Part shown: piece by piece, positions 1,083-22,500 of the stretch
Layout: the number at the start of each line of letters is the position of its first letter
Position numbering within the stretch: the first letter of the stretch is position 1
DNA from: Pigoraptor vietnamica
Taxonomy: Eukaryota; Opisthokonta; Filasterea
Assembly (NCBI GenBank): GCA_943704525.1
Contig: CALSCQ010003070.1
Location: forward strand, 1 to 22,500
Length of the DNA: 22,500 bases
Direction of reading: 5' to 3'
The notes under the pieces: model-generated
Database searches by the model: none
What the model was told of the DNA's origin: nothing
The model's input: only the letters and a program-made list of their open reading frames with translations
Position numbers and translations under genes: made by a program

Positions 1083-3652
1083 TGCGGCGGGGCGGTATGG
1101 CCAGATAAGCCAGCATCGTCGATCGGACGCACCTGCCAAAAGTGCGCGCTGGAGGCCGCGAGGGGAAAGTAGAAGAGGAACGAGAGCATGCCAGTAATCG
1201 CATACGCCCACTGGATGTCGTCGTGCCAGCACTGCACGTCGCACACGCTCGACGGCATCATGTACGCGCCGTACGTCGTGTACCGGCACGCAATCGTGGT
1301 GAGGAGGGTGCGCGTGATCGGGATATAGCCCACGGACCCGAGCAGAGGGAGGAGGACGGGCGCGGGGGCCATGAACGCACGGCCAATGCCGCTCCTGAGA
1401 ATGTACCGCGTGACACCGACGAACATAATGACGCCGTACACGACAAAGATGAGGGCGAGCGGGAACATGATCCAGTAGTACCTGCGGTGGAATCGTGCGA
1501 CGAGTAGAATATGAGCATAGAGACGGGTGCTCACAACAGACCAAGAGGGGAAACTGCATGACTCGAATGGCCATAGGTGGCACAACACTGCCAAGAATGG
1601 AAGCGGCAGACGACGCAAAGACGAACCAGGTGAAGCTGAACTTGCTGAGGCCCACAGACGACACCGCCTTGTCCGTGACGTCAAGCGGCGCCCAGCCGAG
1701 ATCGGTCGCCAGCACGAGTGACGTCACCTGCGGGAATGACGAGCGACGAGAGAAGACACGGCGAGTGAACAACGGAACACGCAATGCGCGCACTGGTACA
1801 CAAGACTGCCAACAGTCGCCGCGGAAGCGGTGAAGTTTTGGCATGACACAACCACACGGAGCGTCACACCGCGCACACGACACCCCAGCGCACACGTGCG
1901 CACGCACGGCAGGCGACGGGGACGCACCTGGAACATGAGAATAACCACGGAGAGCATTGGGATGAAATTCGTAATGTTGAGACGCACGAGCTTCCCCTCG
2001 TCCTTGTTGCCGACGTACTCGCCGGGCTTGAGAATGTACACGATCGAGTAGTAGATGACGCCGACGATCTCCGCGACGACGCACACGATCATGATAAACA
2101 CAAACACGACGCCGCCCCGCGCGTAGTCCCACGAGCTCGAGAGGCGCTGGAAGAAGTGCTTCGAGTCGTCCAGCACCTTGGAGCACAGGTCCACTGCGGG
2201 CGGGAAGGGATTGCGGCAGCGTGAGATCAAACGCGAGTGTGCGAGACAGCCCAACCACGCGCTTCTGGGTACGCGAAGTCCATTAGCTGCCATCGTCACG
2301 CATCTCTTCTCTTCTTAACGACCCTCCATTGAGCCCATCCGCGCACCCACCGGTCGTGTACACGTCGCAGAGGGTGCCAGAGTATCCCGCATCGCACTGG
2401 CACACGTCGTCCCCGACGCACTTTCCGTTCCCGCACCCCTTGAGACAGAAGAACGTCGTCGTGTTGTCGAGCACTATCCGCCCGTCGTACTTCGGGAAGA
2501 GCGGCGCGAAACTCTGCGCCGCCACATAGTCCCTCAGGATGTCGCTGAGCACGGGCCCGTAATCGTATACGCCTTGCGACGAGTCCGTCAGCATCGTATA
2601 GCCGTCGCCACCCTGCCGCGTGAACGACGTCGAGCACACCTGGTAGTAGTCTGTGGGAACGACCGGACGGAATGCGTTGGCGTTGCTGTTCCACACTTCC
2701 GTCTTTACGAGCTTTCGCCCGGCGGGCTTGTCGGGGTTGAAGGCAAGCCGCAGGCCGGCGACCTGGAGAAAGCGGCCGGAGCCCGTCGGAAGGTTTCTGC
2801 CGGAGTTGGGCCACCACGTCGTCGCGTTCGGCACAATGTCGACGGAGAACTGGAGGGCGCTGATCAGCACGGATCCCGGAAGCTTGTACCACGACAGCGA
2901 GTTGCGGAACGGCAGCGCCGTGAGGATCGTGTCGAGCGAGACGTTGCCCGCATTCAGGTTTGTGCGGAGGCCGCCAGAGTTGATGAGGACGATTTTGCAG
3001 TCGGTGGGGAACTTCCACTGTATGGCCGTTGTGACGAGGTTGCCGAGCGCACACTCGCGCGCACGGCACACCGCGCCGCCGTCAAACGACGAATTGGCGC
3101 GGCCGACAACCGTCTGCAGCATCGGTACGTGAGCAATTTCATGCGAGACACCCAAGATGGGAGATGCATAAGAGTGCGCGCATCATCTACAGAGACTTTG
3201 TGTGACAACAGCATGAACGGGTGCATCTGTGCGCGTGAGTTGCGTGCGTCTGTGCGTGCGCGCGTGAGCGGGTGCGATGCGGTCGTTGCGACACCATCGC
3301 GTGGGGCCGGCCACGCACCTTGATGGCCTTGTCGAGCGTCGAGAGCGTAAAGTCGATGTTCGCCTTCAGCACAGGGTCGGGATTGTAGCAGCTGAAGTTG
3401 GCGCGAGGGCAGGCAAACAGAGGAACGGAGTTGCCACCCCACGTGCTCACACGCCCGACGGCGTCAAAGGAAACGTCCAGCGTTGCTCCCATCGCCGCGC
3501 CAATGCCCGCCGACACGACAAGAGTTCGGTCGATTCCTGCGCGTGGCCTGTTTAGAGGAGGTGGCGAGTGCGCATGTGTGCGCCACAAGTGAGAGCGTAT
3601 GTTGTGAACGTGTCCCCTCGTGCGTGCGTGTGCGTGTGCGTGTGCGGGTACG

Positions 3653-16187: not shown

Positions 16188-16220
16188 ATGCTCAAATCTG
16201 ATCGCTTCGTCGGCCCAGTC

Positions 16221-17855
16221 ATGCCTGCGTTGTCTGAGGACGCGTGCAAGGTCCTCCTCGCGAAGGTTCGCGAGGAGTACGAGAATACGCCTGCTTCCCG
16301 CCGCCGCGATGATGACGCCGTGCCTCAGTGGTCGCGCCGCAGGGGCCTCCGGAAGGGCGCGCTTCCCAAGTCGCCGGGCTCGACAAACACGAACAGTTTC
16401 ATGGTGTTCAGCAACCGCTTCCGCGGCCCACTTCGCCGCCACCTTCCGACGCTGACGAACGGCCAACTCTCGAGCGTCCTCGCGCAGCTGTGGCGCTCTC
16501 TGCCAGACAGAGAGAAGGCGGAGTTTCGCACCGCCGCTTCAAGACTTCGGCAGATGGTCCCGACCTCTCGCTTGCCATTGACAGCGGCGCAGCCAGGCGC
16601 CGACAACGACTGGGCGGCAGCCGCGACGGACTCCGCCCCGGCGACGTTTGCAGCGCCGGCGTCAGCTTTTGTTCCATTCCGGCCGGTCAACGACGTGCGT
16701 ATGGACAGTGAACAGGCTGACGCATGCGCGCCTCGCCGGCTTCGTGCTACTGCTGCGCCAACAGAGACTCTGGGCGCCGTTATTGAGACGGGATCCCCTG
16801 GCCGTGTCCGCGACTCCGCCGGCGTTGTTTGCTCGTCAGCTTTCGGCCACACCGCCGCCTTCGACGACGCCCATCGCCGGCTTCTTGCAATCTTTCCAGC
16901 GCACAGGCCGTTACTGACAGGGGCCGACGGGCACAATCAACCGCAAGTCCAGACACCGCGTTTTGGGCAGGTGACGGTGAGCCCCGCCGGCGTGGAGTTG
17001 TCGAGAAAACAGAGGTCCGTTGTGTGTGGCGGCATTCGAACCCTCCCTCTTTTCGGAGGTGTCGGACGGGAAGCGCAATCATGTGTGCAATCGGCAGCGG
17101 CACAGGCGTCCGACAGCATCGGCTCGCATCCGAGGGTCAACGATGGCAGTGTCGGCCTTGGGCAAGGGGCGTTATTCCCCTCCGATCTCTGCTCGCGCGA
17201 CGGGTATGATGCGACGGGTTGTTCGGGTGCTCACGTCACGGCGACACATGGCGAACAGTCGTACTCGTTCTTTGCCGGAACGGCTCCCACAGGAGCTCAC
17301 TTCGACGATCTGCAACCGCTAACGAGCGACGCGCTGTCAGTGGACGTTGGGTTGTCGTCCACGTGTCCGGATCCAGTTGGTGTGATGTCGGCGTTGACCG
17401 ATGCCTTGCCTGCGGAAGTCGCTCGAACGACGTCTCTATTCGAATTCGAACAATTCGAACGGGAGCGCATCTTGTTGTCGGATCTGACGGGCGGCGAAAT
17501 GCGTGCCGCCCTCGACGCACGTCGCATCCCAGTTGTGCGCCAGGAAGCGCCGTCTTCTCCGGCGGCCGGCTCTTTCACGTTGGCAGACGGTGCCGGCGCA
17601 TTTTGCGCTTTCCCGCACACCGACGAAGCGAACGTGCAGGACTCCGATCACTCGGCGTCGCTTTTTAGTGATTGGCGCGAGGACGACGGCGGCCAAGGCC
17701 CTCTTTCTCACCACGACGTGCGTACACTCGGGGCACGCGCTGGACCTCAAGCGCCTGTCACGTCAATAGATAGCGATCCAGCGCAGCAGTTTGACGCGTC
17801 TGCGGAATCGGCGGCGGCTGTGGCGTACTGGAGCATGCCGGTTGTCCTCGTGTGA
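16221..17855 (+). CDS. HMG-box protein, paralogue 1 (intronless)
   Basis: A single open frame of 555 codons from ATG 16188, or 544 from ATG 16221; I prefer 16221 because it has G at -3 while 16188 has C. Numbering from 16188, residues 20-65 form a conserved basic block (DDDAVPQWSR, RRGLRKG), and residues 66-122 are an HMG box: NSFMVFSNRFR, RRHLPTLT, LSSVLAQLWRSLP, EKAEF, AASRL align with the family pattern NAFMLFxxxxR, P, LSxxLGxxWxxLxxxEK, AxxL. HMG boxes bend DNA in the minor groove; single-box proteins of this MATA/SOX-like type are usually sequence-specific regulators. Residues 123-545 are low-complexity Ala/Asp/Ser/Thr-rich with no recognised domain. The C-terminus ends YWSMPVVLV. About 70% identical to paralogue 2 over residues 20-122, unrelated in the middle. 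No introns, unlike the neighbours. Sits opposite in strand to the decayed receptor gene. Confidence 0.85.
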   Translation: MPALSEDACKVLLAKVREEYENTPASRRRDDDAVPQWSRRRGLRKGALPKSPGSTNTNSFMVFSNRFRGPLRRHLPTLTNGQLSSVLAQLWRSLPDREKAEFRTAASRLRQMVPTSRLPLTAAQPGADNDWAAAATDSAPATFAAPASAFVPFRPVNDVRMDSEQADACAPRRLRATAAPTETLGAVIETGSPGRVRDSAGVVCSSAFGHTAAFDDAHRRLLAIFPAHRPLLTGADGHNQPQVQTPRFGQVTVSPAGVELSRKQRSVVCGGIRTLPLFGGVGREAQSCVQSAAAQASDSIGSHPRVNDGSVGLGQGALFPSDLCSRDGYDATGCSGAHVTATHGEQSYSFFAGTAPTGAHFDDLQPLTSDALSVDVGLSSTCPDPVGVMSALTDALPAEVARTTSLFEFEQFERERILLSDLTGGEMRAALDARRIPVVRQEAPSSPAAGSFTLADGAGAFCAFPHTDEANVQDSDHSASLFSDWREDDGGQGPLSHHDVRTLGARAGPQAPVTSIDSDPAQQFDASAESAAAVAYWSMPVVLV

Positions 17856-18874
17856 AGCTGTCGTCGGTGAGCATTTGTCAGAGCAATGAAGAAAACCAGA
17901 CTGTCTTTTGGCTGATACCTGTCCAGCTTACCGCCCGGAGTTACGGCAGTTTTTCGGCCGTGGACTGTCTGCGACTGGTTGCTGCAATGGCACGCGGCTG
18001 TTTTGCTCAGTGCCGGCATGCACGCCCTTATGCCGGACCGCCGTCATCATTCGCCGGCCAGTAGCGGCCTTACAGTAGTTCGCTCACTCGGCCGGCGGAT
18101 CCGGCCGGGGCCTTCAGCCGTTGGCCAATGGCCGGAGCTGCCCCGGGTGCGAGGCCCGGGCCGTGACGGTGGCGACTGAAACGGGGCTTTATTGCGACGG
18201 GTTCAGTCCTGTCGCCGGAATTTTGCCGCCTTCGGGTCAGCCGGCATCAGACGAGTGCCAGCACACGACACTGGCGGCAATTCGTCCATCTCAGTCTCTC
18301 AGTGCCCGCCCTGACACACTGACCGACATACCCGTTACTGTACTACCCAGTCCGGACCGTGCGCCTGGCGACGCCTCGACGTCATCCGACCGCTCTTCCT
18401 CCGTGTAGGTAACCTGATGAAAGGCAATGACAGGAGTGATGCCAAACCCAAAAAATAGCCTAAATTTAAAATAACGTTAAAGGAGTATCGCATAGCCGGT
18501 TTGCTTCAATCTAACGTTTAGTCCGGGAATGGTCGGCACACGCCCGCCCGCCTGCGGTTCTGAACACACAGCCGCCGGCCACTGACCGTGGGTCATCACG
18601 GCGGCCCAGTCACTGCTCAGTACCGGCCACTTGCCCGGTCGTCGGCGGCGATTGTTCCGGTCAGTCACTGACAGTCAGACGGACCGGATCAGCGGCGGGA
18701 TCCACGTATCTGAGCCGCCGCCCGGGTGCCGTGGCTCTGATGCCGCAGCCCACGGCTGAGCCGTACAGTACCCGGAGCCGGCCCGGCGGCAGCCGCCGGC
18801 TGAATCGGGCCGCCGCCGCCCAGACCGGACACTCGGCAGGCACTCAGTGAGTCACGGATCGGCGGCGAACTCAC

Positions 18875-19070
18875 CAGGGTAAGCCTATTCCATGGGATGA
18901 CATCTTAGGTGCGAGGGGATCGCTCGTTTTCGTGCGTGAATCGGCTGCCCGTGTCGGGCGCGGCTTGATTGACGCAATGATGGCAGGTGCACGCGCAGGG
19001 TGCCAAATCTGCCAGCCAACAATGATGCCCCATTTAATCCGAGAATGTTCCACGGAATCGCTCCACTCAC
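18875..19070 (-). pseudogene. LRR-like exon relic
   Basis: Minus-strand code reads LGLNGASLLAGRFGTL followed shortly by HLPSLRQ, close to the LRR exon pattern NxLxSLPAGxFxxLxSLQ of the receptor pseudogene at 13.3-14.2 kb, but with an extra three residues and a missing one. Donor-like GTGAGT sites bound the segment at 19070-19065 and 18874-18869. If real it extends the receptor relic to 19 kb and places HMG-box paralogue 1 inside its span. Could be chance similarity. Confidence 0.35.
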
Positions 19071-19217
19071 AAAGGTAACAGGAGTGGAACCCTTTTGTTA
19101 GCCCTGTGTCCGTCTATCGCCAGCACGTGGTTTCTCTGTGCAAAGTGAAAAAAAAACGGGAGGAACATGGCATTGCGCCGGCATAAATGGCCAGAACTCC
19201 CTAATCCCTAATCGAGT

Positions 19218-19529
19218 CTATTGGCAGCCGGGCGACATGGACACCTTTTTTTGTTTCACTTCAAAACGGTCTTCGTGTTGGAACTTCCACTCGCTTTGCG
19301 TGGGCCATGCAAAGCAAGCCACGCCGCCAGTGGGCTCTTTTAATTTTTTGGAGTCCTGACTCAGTCGGTCGGCCGTCGACAATCCAACTGTGACACCCAT
19401 ACCCTTTAGGTCGATTGTGCGGGTCGTGCCGACACACATCGAGACGCCGACACATCGAGGCGCATCCTGTGGCACAATCGTCTTAGTGTACTTGACGGCG
19501 TTTTGGAGTTCCTCGCGGCAGCTTGACAC
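19218..19529 (-). other. Unassigned minus-strand reading frame, possible exon
   Basis: An open frame of about 100 codons without an ATG at its head; a CCGGTAG acceptor-like site lies at its upstream edge near 19,530. The translation (ELQNAVKYTKTIVPQDAP, GTTRTIDLKGMGVTVGLS, EWKFQHEDRF) has ordinary composition and four cysteines and looks more protein-like than the antisense frame at 19138-19359. It may be an N-terminal exon of the decayed receptor gene or noise. No family recognised. Confidence 0.3.
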
Positions 19530-19882
19530 TACCGGCAGGCCTGCCGCCGGCGGGGGCCACCACGCTCGGATCGCCGCGCTTCACGGACAGACACCGACGC
19601 CACTCAACGGCATGCGTTATCACGCATCGAAATCAGTAGGGTGGGCCACTTTCCGTATGTTGCGAGTGCGCCGCATAGTTCTCGGACGTTCATCGTTCTT
19701 CACAGTCGACCAGTCGGCGGTCTTAGACTCAGTGAGGGTGCGCCGTATGTCAGTACACTAACGCCCCAGAGACGTCCTCCCCTCCCCCCCCCCCCAAACC
19801 TCACTACGCGCCCGCGGCGGGCTCTTGCAGTGCGACCAGTCGCCCCGCGCAGCATCGGATGGCGGGCGCCGCGGACAACAGT

Positions 19883-21190
19883 ATGGGGCGGCCGCAGAGT
19901 CCGTCGGACAACGAGTGCAGGGCTCTGCTCCTGAGTCTCCACGCCGAGTACCACAGTGCTCCGCCGTCTCACCGTCGCGACGATGAGGACGTCCCGCAGT
20001 GGTCACGCCGCAAGGGCCTCCGGAAGGGCGCGCGTCCAGCGACTCCCGGCTCAACCAACACGAACAGCTTCATCGTGTTCAGCAATCGCTTTCGAAGCCC
20101 ACTTCGCCGTCACCTTCCGACGCTGACAAACGGCCAACTGTCGAGGGTCCTCGCAAAGCTCTGGCGTCTCTTGCCAGAGAGCGAAAAGGACACGTATCGC
20201 ATGGCCGCGGCGAGGCTTCGGGACGGCGCGACGCAGGCGGAGGACAGTCGCGCCGGCGGTGCGCCGTCCGCCGTCCGGACCGCTGGTAACGCTTCGAACG
20301 TCGCAGCAATTCCATCCATCGGCGCGGCGTCGCAGGAGGCGGCTGCGCAATACCCGGCAAATGACGACGTGTCCGTCGAAATGGTCGAGGACGACGCGCC
20401 GCCGGCGAGTCACGTGAGCGCCCACACGCGCCAAGTCAATCTGCCGCGCTACAAGCCGCTGCTGTCGTGGGACCCGACGGACGATCACGTGGCCACCGAA
20501 CCTGTTCGAGCGACTCCACAGCAGACGCCGGGCGGCCGTCCCCCCTGGCCACCCTTCGGCAACGCCGGATCGCTCGAGCCGACCACGACCACGAACCCGG
20601 CGGATCCACCGCTGCACGTGCTGCAGGCACTCCACATCGCGGCGAACCAGCCGGTCCCCTTCGGCCTCCCGGCGAACGGCGGCGGAGGGCTTGGCGGGCA
20701 CGTGACCTCGTTGTCGGACAACGTCGCGCGTCGCCTGTTCATCGACAAGGTGTCCGTCGTCGACCCCCTCGATCACGTGACGGGTGGGGACGGCGAGGAC
20801 GACATCTTGTTCGCAGCCTCAACGCTCAACGACACGTACCCGCCGACGCACGCGCACGCGACGGCATTCGGTGCCAATCGCCCTGTCGCGTTCCCCTGGG
20901 ACAGCGCCGGTGCGCGAGTGTCGCACGACAGCGGAAACGACGCAATGGTCTGCGTCGACGAGGTCCCTGCGTCAATGACGTACACGAGCGACGCGCCTCA
21001 CATATGGATCCCAAAGCCAGCCTCGACCGTCAACGCCGCTTACACCGACATTCGCGCGCCGTTCGTCGAAATGAGCGCCCCGAACGGACCTGCTGCGAGC
21101 GTACGCGACGCACACCCCGGCACGATGGCCGGCGCAGGGGAGGCGAACCAGACGCGACCCTATTGGACGATGCCGGTTGTTCTTGTGTGA
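19883..21190 (+). CDS. HMG-box protein, paralogue 2 (intronless)
   Basis: A single open frame of 443 codons from ATG 19859, or 435 from ATG 19883; 19883 is preferred because it has A at -3 and G at +4. Numbering from 19859, residues 20-65 hold the same basic block as paralogue 1 (DEDVPQWSR, RKGLRKG) and 66-122 the HMG box (NSFIVFSNRFR, PLRRHLPTLT, LSRVLAKLWRLLP, EKDTY, AAARL). The two blocks align without gaps at about 70% identity. The middle is shorter than in paralogue 1 by 112 residues and not alignable by eye. The end, YWTMPVVLV, differs from paralogue 1 at one residue. Likely a nuclear DNA-binding regulator. Head-to-tail with paralogue 1 two kilobases upstream, and tail-to-tail with the kinase gene 178 bases downstream. 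Confidence 0.87.
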   Translation: MGRPQSPSDNECRALLLSLHAEYHSAPPSHRRDDEDVPQWSRRKGLRKGARPATPGSTNTNSFIVFSNRFRSPLRRHLPTLTNGQLSRVLAKLWRLLPESEKDTYRMAAARLRDGATQAEDSRAGGAPSAVRTAGNASNVAAIPSIGAASQEAAAQYPANDDVSVEMVEDDAPPASHVSAHTRQVNLPRYKPLLSWDPTDDHVATEPVRATPQQTPGGRPPWPPFGNAGSLEPTTTTNPADPPLHVLQALHIAANQPVPFGLPANGGGGLGGHVTSLSDNVARRLFIDKVSVVDPLDHVTGGDGEDDILFAASTLNDTYPPTHAHATAFGANRPVAFPWDSAGARVSHDSGNDAMVCVDEVPASMTYTSDAPHIWIPKPASTVNAAYTDIRAPFVEMSAPNGPAASVRDAHPGTMAGAGEANQTRPYWTMPVVLV

Positions 21191-21368
21191 AGAGCGCCGA
21201 TGCCTCATAGTAAATCGCTCCCCGCGTGCGTGCGTCAAACAAACGGAACATGAAAGGCGCATAGCTCAAAGTGACAGTTTCAATGCATATAATAAGGCAG
21301 CTCGAAGCACGCAGCAGACGCAATTTAAAACAGTTGTGGGGCGCACGACGCGCAGATAGATAGATACT
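21191..21368. other. Convergent 3' spacer between HMG-box paralogue 2 and the kinase gene
   Basis: 178 bases shared by the 3' ends of two convergent genes. A GATA triplet repeat (21355-21366) lies at the kinase side, and ATAATAAGG/TTTAAAAC AT-rich words in the middle could hold polyadenylation signals on either strand; none is canonical. Confidence 0.5.
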
Positions 21369-22500
21369 TCACCACGACCCAACCCATTTGTACGACTTCG
21401 TTTCGCCGCTCGACAGCCGCGCCACGTGCATTAGCGGCGGCGGGGTGTGGAACAGGTTCGCGTCGGGCTCAACAAACGCAGCGACGTCCATGTCGGCAAG
21501 CACAGACGCGATCGCGATGAACGAGGGGCGCCGCGCGGGGCTGTCGTCCCAGCACGCGCGCATTAGGTCCATGTAGGGCTGCGCGTAGCTGTCAGGCACG
21601 GGGAACGGGCGCACGCCGCGGTAGGCGACCTTGAGGGCAAAGTGGAGGAGCGGTTGTCCCTTGATCATAGGGCGGAGGTTGCTGTACGGCAATCGGCGCG
21701 CGAAGAGCTCGTACATGATGATGCCTGTCGGCGTCGAACGTCAGCAATTGCAGTGTAAGTGTAACACGACGCACGCGGGACAGCACACAGAGACTCTCCC
21801 AGCACACAAAGGCCGGTTGCCGAAACAATCGACACGTGGCAACCCTACACAAGTACTATACGGGAAAGTAGCAACATGTATCTCGGCCGCCTATTCCTAG
21901 TGACTCGACTGGGCCTCGCAATGTACGGCACACAGCGGCATGCAATTCGCTCGTCTCTGACTCGACTCGGCCGCGCAATGTGCGACACATACAAGCGCAC
22001 TCACCAAACGAGTACACGTCGGCGGCGGAATCGACGACGTCCCCGCGGATCATTTCGGGCGCCGTCCACATGGGTGACCCTCGCCCGTCGCCCTTCACCG
22101 TAACACTCTTGAGCACGGAGAGGCCAAAGTCCGCCACCTGCGCCAAAAAAGGCGTCACAATATGGCACGAGCGTCACTTGCGAGATGACGCATGGGCGCG
22201 TTAGAGGGGAGACGCACCTTTAGGCGCATCGTGTCATCGATGAGAAGGTTCGCCGATTTCTGCGTTGAAACACACGCTGAGCTACTACCCAGAGGCGCGA
22301 TAGCAAGAACACACAGTTACACACACGACGCACCACACCATTCGCAACACGCGCGCACACGCCCTCTCTTCTGCGAAGCACATTATGGACGGTCCTAACG
22401 GCACGCTTGCGCACAAAGAACACGTAGCGCACTCACGAGGTCGAGATGGAGGATGGGCGGGGACGCCGAGTGCAGATAGGCCATGCCCCGCGCGGCGTCT
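21369..22500 (-). CDS. TKL-family protein kinase, C-terminal part (truncated by the window edge)
   Basis: Four exons on the minus strand: from beyond 22500 to 22437, then 22259-22218, 22137-22005 and 21724-21369; all GT-AG with matching phases. They encode the C-lobe: ARGMAYLH, catalytic loop HLDLKSANLLID (HRD arginine is leucine), activation segment VADFGLS to GSPMWTAPEM, DVYSFGIIMYEL, then a CWDDSPARRPSF motif and a 30-residue tail ending WVGSW. The GxPxWxAPE and CWxxxPxxRP motifs are those of tyrosine-kinase-like (TKL) Ser/Thr kinases. Asp and Lys of the loop, DFG and APE are intact, so it is probably active; with Leu before Asp it is a non-RD kinase, not needing loop phosphorylation in the usual way. 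Whether it carries a receptor ectodomain lies outside the window. Confidence 0.9.
21901..21991. repeat. Intronic tandem duplication, 57-base offset
   Basis: In the kinase intron 21725-22004, TGACTCGACTGGGCCTCGCA at 21901 recurs as TGACTCGACTCGGCCGCGCA at 21958, each followed by ATGT/ATGTG and ACACA. The second copy lies next to the 5' splice site of the intron. Confidence 0.65.

Follow-up and report, generated by a model that had tools for sequence, protein, structure and literature searches.

The window considered here is a stretch of 22,500 nucleotides from Pigoraptor vietnamica (contig CALSCQ010003070.1, positions 1 to 22,500), part of the 32.5-Mb, 1395-contig genome of a single-celled eukaryote, and the same genome was searched for related genes. 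It carries two HMG-box genes, gene 1 and gene 2, that lie in tandem on the same strand, 2.0 kb apart. Their products share (i) an N-terminal block that contains a single HMG box and (ii) a C-terminal nonapeptide, hereafter the tail. At least nine single-HMG-box proteins in this genome, the pair included, make up a family in which the tail is more than a chance resemblance. The features of the two genes are as follows.

16221..17855, plus strand: HMG-box gene 1, a single open frame of 544 amino acids with its stop at 17855
16232..16602, plus strand: conserved N-terminal block of gene 1 (helix, PQWSRRxGLxKG basic block, HMG box), from blastn and the repeat search
16383..16556, plus strand: HMG box of gene 1, PF00505 over cut-off
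16551..17825, plus strand: middle of gene 1, 425 residues, 73% disorder-promoting letters, no convincing alignment with gene 2
17826..17855, plus strand: gene 1 tail YWSMPVVLV and stop
19859..21190, plus strand: HMG-box gene 2, a single open frame of 443 amino acids
19903..20266, plus strand: conserved N-terminal block of gene 2, from blastn
19907..19957, plus strand: predicted N-terminal helix of gene 2, residues 17-33, within the conserved block (AlphaFold2)
20054..20230, plus strand: HMG box of gene 2 (PF00505), with helices predicted by AlphaFold2 at residues 69-85, 91-104, and 107-132
20222..21160, plus strand: middle of gene 2, 313 residues, 74% disorder-promoting letters, predicted local distance difference test (pLDDT) below 50 from residue 133
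21161..21190, plus strand: gene 2 tail YWTMPVVLV and stop

Gene 1 has a second in-frame ATG upstream, at 16188, which would lengthen its product by 11 residues to 555. The N termini of the two proteins are identical at 73 of 106 residues (69%, BLASTP), and the C-terminal ends form a separate BLASTP piece, YW[ST]MPVVLV, with eight of nine residues identical. The Pfam HMG_box profile (PF00505, cut-off 25.4 bits) matches genes 1 and 2 with 44.2 and 43.2 bits (expect values, E, of 2.7e-11 and 5.5e-11), which upholds the HMG box that an earlier note on this DNA had assigned to both; the Pfam search found no second domain in either protein. At the DNA level, blastn returns two strong blocks, one of 373 columns at 74.5% identity (16232-16602 against 19903-20266, E 7.6e-68) and one of 32 nucleotides at 84% that spans the tail and stop (17826-17857 against 21161-21192, E 8.8e-4). 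Ten other pieces are weaker, at E 0.33 or worse, and a repeat search of the window recovers the same two blocks. For the middles (425 versus 313 residues), the global alignment score is matched by 11 of 200 shuffles and the local score by 19 of 200. The two plus-strand open frames with a common HMG-box N terminus and tail, and the unalignable middles, are thus confirmed as the earlier note described and placed them. Its statement that the last 30 or so bases are nearly identical is slightly too strong: they are similar, with 5 of 32 positions differing.

By Nei-Gojobori counts on the window pair, the box block has a non-synonymous divergence (dN) of 0.193 and a synonymous divergence (dS) of 0.67. 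Given a dS of only that size, the possibility that the middle evolved faster or was replaced was considered, and no such claim is made, since simulation explains the loss of similarity. At the pair's distance, the simulated blastn similarity has a median of 264 bits without insertions and deletions (indels) and of 39, 27, and 20 bits with 0.05, 0.1, and 0.2 indels per substitution (20 runs per setting), against 21.1 observed for the middle. Because the simulation reaches the observed level, neutral drift with indels suffices.

The family in this genome and beyond

A search of the genome with gene 2 leads to nine places: the window pair and seven further members (C1346, C984, C728, C358, C457, C796, and C321), all seven picked up by whole-protein search through matches over the HMG box. 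Nine is a lower bound, as the search scores only the best candidates. Searches begun from C457 and from C796 each recover eight of the nine, missing C321, and the latter adds the HMGB-type C419; a search from C321 also recovers eight, missing C796, and adds the SOX-like C948 and C1053 as well as C654. Matched stretches between members are 28-40% identical. The Pfam HMG_box genome search lists 26 places, eight of them family members; seven of the nine members are over the cut-off, C457 falls below it at 22.3 bits, and C728 is not listed. The helix and the PQWSRRxGLxKG basic block stand ahead of the box in five members. All nine frames run uninterrupted from the box to the stop, and none of the 36 pairs of member middles shares 12-mers at a threshold of at most 1 in 60 shuffles. 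Members with both box and tail exist in the same genome beyond the pair, as the earlier note's family would have it.

The printed frames of the non-family HMG loci appear HMGB-like, SOX-like, or like an HMG box fused to what by eye resembles an F-box. Four such frames (C1274, C943, C778, and C1158) combine the F-box with an HMG-like box and are apparently a second family. Next to the C457 member, on the opposite strand, lies an HDAC8-like frame (L007:2468-3262, minus), with a best identity of 51% among the 120 matches listed of 4429.

Outside this genome, the family alignment (A1) was compared with 5.8 billion proteins, and none of the 7995 candidates scored reached E 0.001; gene 2 residues 20-125 drew 165 candidates from public proteins, none at E 1. 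The protein collection includes eukaryotes (EukProt and NR are among its sources), and the word filter of the search lacks sensitivity for distant boxes. A giant-virus origin of the intronless genes was considered and dropped, with no relative found in viral contigs (alignment A2, 133 pattern matches, none confirmed). The suggestion in the earlier note that the family is unique to this lineage is thus not contradicted by public proteins or viral contigs, although the searches behind that statement are insensitive. In the open-licence PMC literature, none of five tail strings was found, and topic searches led to no such family.

The C-terminal tail

The tail has the consensus [YF]-W-x-M-x-V-x-[LT]-[VLI] and lies at the stop, or up to 14 residues before the end, in eight of the nine members; seven tails are clear, C728 has a weak variant, and C984 has none. 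Besides YWSMPVVLV (gene 1) and YWTMPVVLV (gene 2), the tails FWAMPVVTL (C1346), YWSMKVTLL (C358), and FLRMPVVTL (C796) end at the stop, SWRLPVVLI (C321) is followed by 4 residues, and YWRMIVRLG (C457) by 14. C728 ends in the shifted form EWSKMQLPVILL at its stop. C984 pairs with C728 in the box tree described below (96/95), has an intact box, and closes its frame with two stops.

The last 30 residues of each member were scored against YWSMPVVLV, a motif taken from the window pair itself, with BLOSUM62. The null was 591 other frame ends, which are mechanically open frames, mostly non-genes, and include a frame at C1336 that had been fetched by a tail pattern. Gene 1, gene 2, C1346, C358, and C321 score above all 591; the score of C457 is reached by 1 of them, those of C796 and C728 by 2 each, and that of C984 by 273. 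Shuffles of a member's own last 30 residues reach its score in 0 of 5000 cases for the first five, 1 for C457, and 27 for C796.

Positions were counted over eight rows, the seven clear tails and C1336, with C728 and C984 left out. A hydrophobic residue occupies positions 2, 4, and 6 in all eight rows and positions 3 and 5 in one row each, and W2, M4, and V6 are the kept positions. Such alternation from position 2 to position 6 points to a β strand, which the tail perhaps forms.

Constraint on the tail, claimed in the earlier note, is supported by the codons of the pair, few as the sites are: synonymous differences number 3.5 over 6.0 sites, non-synonymous ones 1.5 over 21. The persistence of the tail between members with 28-40% identity over their matched stretches agrees with these counts.

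The tail regular expression, which also missed the C321 tail, found no frame end in the non-family HMG loci, where an intron-bearing gene may have its end beyond the frame inspected. Three tail codon patterns, which capture only some of the codon and residue variants used in the family, gave 6, 11, and 5 matches across the genome versus 1, 2, and 0 in a reversed control. Among these matches, C1336 (1939-1965, minus) is the only place beyond the known members where the motif stands at the stop of a frame of more than 90 residues. This frame, of 96-102 residues, ends in GTYWRMNVALI, by eye nearest to the C457 tail, and lies about 0.86 kb downstream of an unrelated frame of 473 residues. Its guanine-plus-cytosine (GC) content by codon position (0.60, 0.52, and 0.68) resembles that of coding sequence; no HMG box is listed for C1336 in the Pfam genome search, and none was seen by eye in 4.6 kb. 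Candidate readings of this tail-only frame are a decoy, a remnant, and a chance resemblance. Less convincing are the matches in C676, where the motif closes a 12-residue frame, in C1060 (64-residue frame, motif followed by 2 residues), in C112 (111-residue frame, followed by 6), and in C1076 and C1379 (12 and 11 residues). The chance-looking match at C676 adjoins a reverse-transcriptase-like frame that is DIRS-like by eye.

The SOX-like C1053, nearest to the family in the tree, has a 615-residue frame that ends in IWSVDSLLAARRRANPSS, eh1-like by eye and with a tail score of 17. From this end, the tail may have older roots.

Class of the box and origin of the pair

In a tree of 21 boxes over 66 columns, the family boxes cluster together (83/82; recovered in 81% of 200 bootstrap trees) and share a 98/95 group with SOX9, SRY, and the SOX-like C948 and C1053 of the same genome, apart from HMGB. 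The tree uses 9 of the 18 non-family places, split or partial boxes being left out, together with short reference stretches and a midpoint root. An asparagine at the DNA-contact position of the first helix (N58) is invariant in all nine members; in the printed alignments this position is Asn in SOX9 and SRY and Ser in HMGB1. Asn instead of Ser at this position marks sequence-specific HMG boxes. On this small tree and this residue, the family boxes appear to be of the sequence-specific type, on the SOX/SRY side.

The AlphaFold2 model of gene 2 places helix 17-33 with pLDDT values of 74, 88, and 76 over residues 11-40, and the three box helices with values of 80-88 over residues 71-120 and 60 over residues 121-130. 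Residues 133-443, tail included, fall below 50, the tail blocks are at 35-38, and no strand is called there; the middles are probably disordered. Foldseek on this mostly disordered model ranks SOX9 first (E 0.19), with further HMG boxes behind it, and no match reaches E 0.001.

The pair is accounted for by duplication of a gene that already lacked introns, because the two genes are in tandem on the same strand and all nine family frames are unbroken; intronlessness is for the latter reason a trait of the family. Retroposition, offered in the earlier note as the origin of the pair, is unsupported on the same grounds. The members outside the window are dispersed single frames, and only the HMG_box list of 26 places was checked for an intron-bearing parent.

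Role of the tail and neighbouring features

We consider it reasonably likely, from the pattern of conservation, that these proteins are sequence-specific HMG-box regulators with drifting linkers and a tail that docks onto one shared partner. The box would bind and bend a short DNA site in the manner of SOX proteins, the middle would serve as a free tether, and the tail, perhaps as a β strand, would dock in a groove on a single nuclear partner, a co-repressor or a co-activator. Through docking, members that bind different target sites would all recruit one common machinery. Two conserved ends joined by a free tether would be the anatomy of a recruiter, with a DNA grip at one end and a plug at the other. 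The docking motif for a shared partner put forward in the earlier note is thus retained as the best explanation, as a putative motif. We guess at a repressor-type partner because of the parallel with WRPW, eh1, and Capicua N2. Tup1 was tried as a candidate and rejected, since Tup_N has two matches in the genome, none over the cut-off; TLE_N of Groucho was not searched. WD40 repeats are plentiful in the genome and uninformative on the partner.

Several observations weigh against this proposal. The tail is not indispensable, for C984 lacks it (4071 of 5000 shuffles reach its score) and that of C728 is poor (223 of 5000). Hydrophobic residues also prevail at tail positions 1, 7, 8, and 9 (7, 6, 6, and 7 of 8 rows), so strict strand alternation is limited to positions 2-6. 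In the codon pattern with 11 matches, eight lie outside the family and C1336, and its control has two. The tail offers just six synonymous sites, which makes its rate ratio weak taken alone. PDB profile scores fail to separate the box classes (HMGB1 38.0 versus SOX-9 35.5 bits), and the AlphaFold2 model was built from two sequences only, the window proteins, with a mean pLDDT of 42.1.

Most known examples of short docking motifs on transcription factors come from animals, plants, and yeast. The family resembles SOX/TCF/MATA-type factors in its single HMG box, in the Asn shared with SOX9 and SRY, and in its grouping with both in the tree, and differs in the PQWSRRxGL basic block that precedes the box in five members; we know of no SOX protein with a C-terminal motif of this type. 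With HMGB/NHP6 architectural proteins it shares the HMG fold and profile scores similar to those of SOX, but HMGB1 has Ser in place of the family Asn and the HMGB rows lie across the 98/95 branch. To our knowledge, HMGB/NHP6 proteins have no such tail. The WRPW of Hairy-type proteins is C-terminal, like the tail, yet none of the nine C termini reads WRPW or WRPY, and the engrailed eh1 pattern [FWY][ST][IVLM]xx[IVLM][IVLM] fits just two of the eight tail rows, both from the window pair.

These Groucho-docking peptides are nevertheless alike in kind, being short, hydrophobic, and aromatic-containing and recruiting a co-regulator to DNA-binding proteins, as described in PMC4287436. In the HMG-box repressor Capicua, according to the same paper, Groucho is recruited by a short motif of dipteran origin that differs from both WRPW and eh1 (PMC4287436). 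Drosophila Capicua Cic-S likewise combines an HMG box with a short co-regulator motif, N2, that is lineage-specific and transferable; N2, in that account, differs in being N-terminal, isoform-specific, and of the sequence LYLQCLL, unlike YWxMPVVLV (PMC4287436). Short docking motifs are known on sequence-specific HMG-box factors, and the family described here would add a case whose tail matches none of WRPW, eh1, and Capicua N2.

An extension of the docking proposal would be a long shot: a lineage-specific regulatory hub in which at least nine factors with different target sites are addressed by the tail to one co-regulator, the tail being a strand-type docking motif not described before, and in which the C1336 frame competes as a decoy. 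Among rival explanations, the tail could bind SUMO, through the interaction motif [VIL][VIL]x[VIL] or its reverse, and so read SUMO-modified chromatin proteins. Such a core is present by eye in all eight tails (VVLV twice, VVTL twice, VTLL, IVRL, VVLI, and VILL), and its regular expression matches the last 30 residues of eight of nine members; of the 662 other frame ends, 114 match over the last 30 residues and 47 over the last 12. The motif is permissive. In C796 its first match (LAIL) precedes the tail, in C728 (LPVI) and C321 (LPVV) it is shifted, and the most constant tail letters, W2 and M4, fall outside the core. A SUMO-interaction core often has an acidic flank, and the tails inspected have no conserved one, so that we regard this reading as unlikely. 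It is likewise improbable that the tail acts within its own protein, either by folding on the HMG box in auto-inhibition or by pairing strands between copies as dimers. This would fit the fact that the box block and the tail are the sole two blocks conserved between the pair, and it has a precedent in the tails of HMG-D and ZmHMGB1, which according to PMC4207994 occlude the DNA-binding region. Those tails are acidic, though, and the present one is hydrophobic; its low pLDDT (35-38) and the lack of a modelled strand are weak evidence on the same side.

A hydrophobic C-terminal degron or localisation signal, which would keep the regulators short-lived or sorted, agrees with the position of the tail at the stop in gene 1, gene 2, C1346, C358, and C796, and of its weak form in C728. 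We rate it as decidedly unlikely, given the 14 and 4 residues that follow the tail in C457 and C321 and the retention of specific side chains at positions 2, 4, and 6 rather than of general greasiness. That the tail is a functionless left-over of a recent duplication or gene conversion appears extremely unlikely: the window pair is indeed tandem and moderately diverged (box block dS 0.67), but the tail persists among members with 28-40% identity over their matched stretches, whose middles have no 12-mer in common at the shuffle threshold, and the tail codons of the pair hold synonymous changes.

With docking onto a shared partner as the preferred reading, the family could serve as a natural experiment, in that little beyond the box and the nonapeptide is still recognisable, which marks two functional ends. 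The conserved tail makes the search for a shared partner a simple pulldown, and the family would offer a handle on how many regulators are wired to one output in a single-celled eukaryote lineage.

The window holds further features. Between genes 1 and 2, the interval 17950-18880 is GC-rich; its part 18540-18880 matches only itself in the genome and so does not have the look of a repeat element. On the minus strand, 2286-3155 encodes a 5′-nucleotidase C-terminal domain (PF02872, E 2.3e-32) followed by a stretch that is EGF-like by eye. Downstream of gene 2, at 21372-22158 on the minus strand, protein kinase pieces lie in two frames (PF07714, E 2.5e-7 and 7.8e-4, the latter below the curated cut-off) and are probably parts of one intron-bearing kinase gene.

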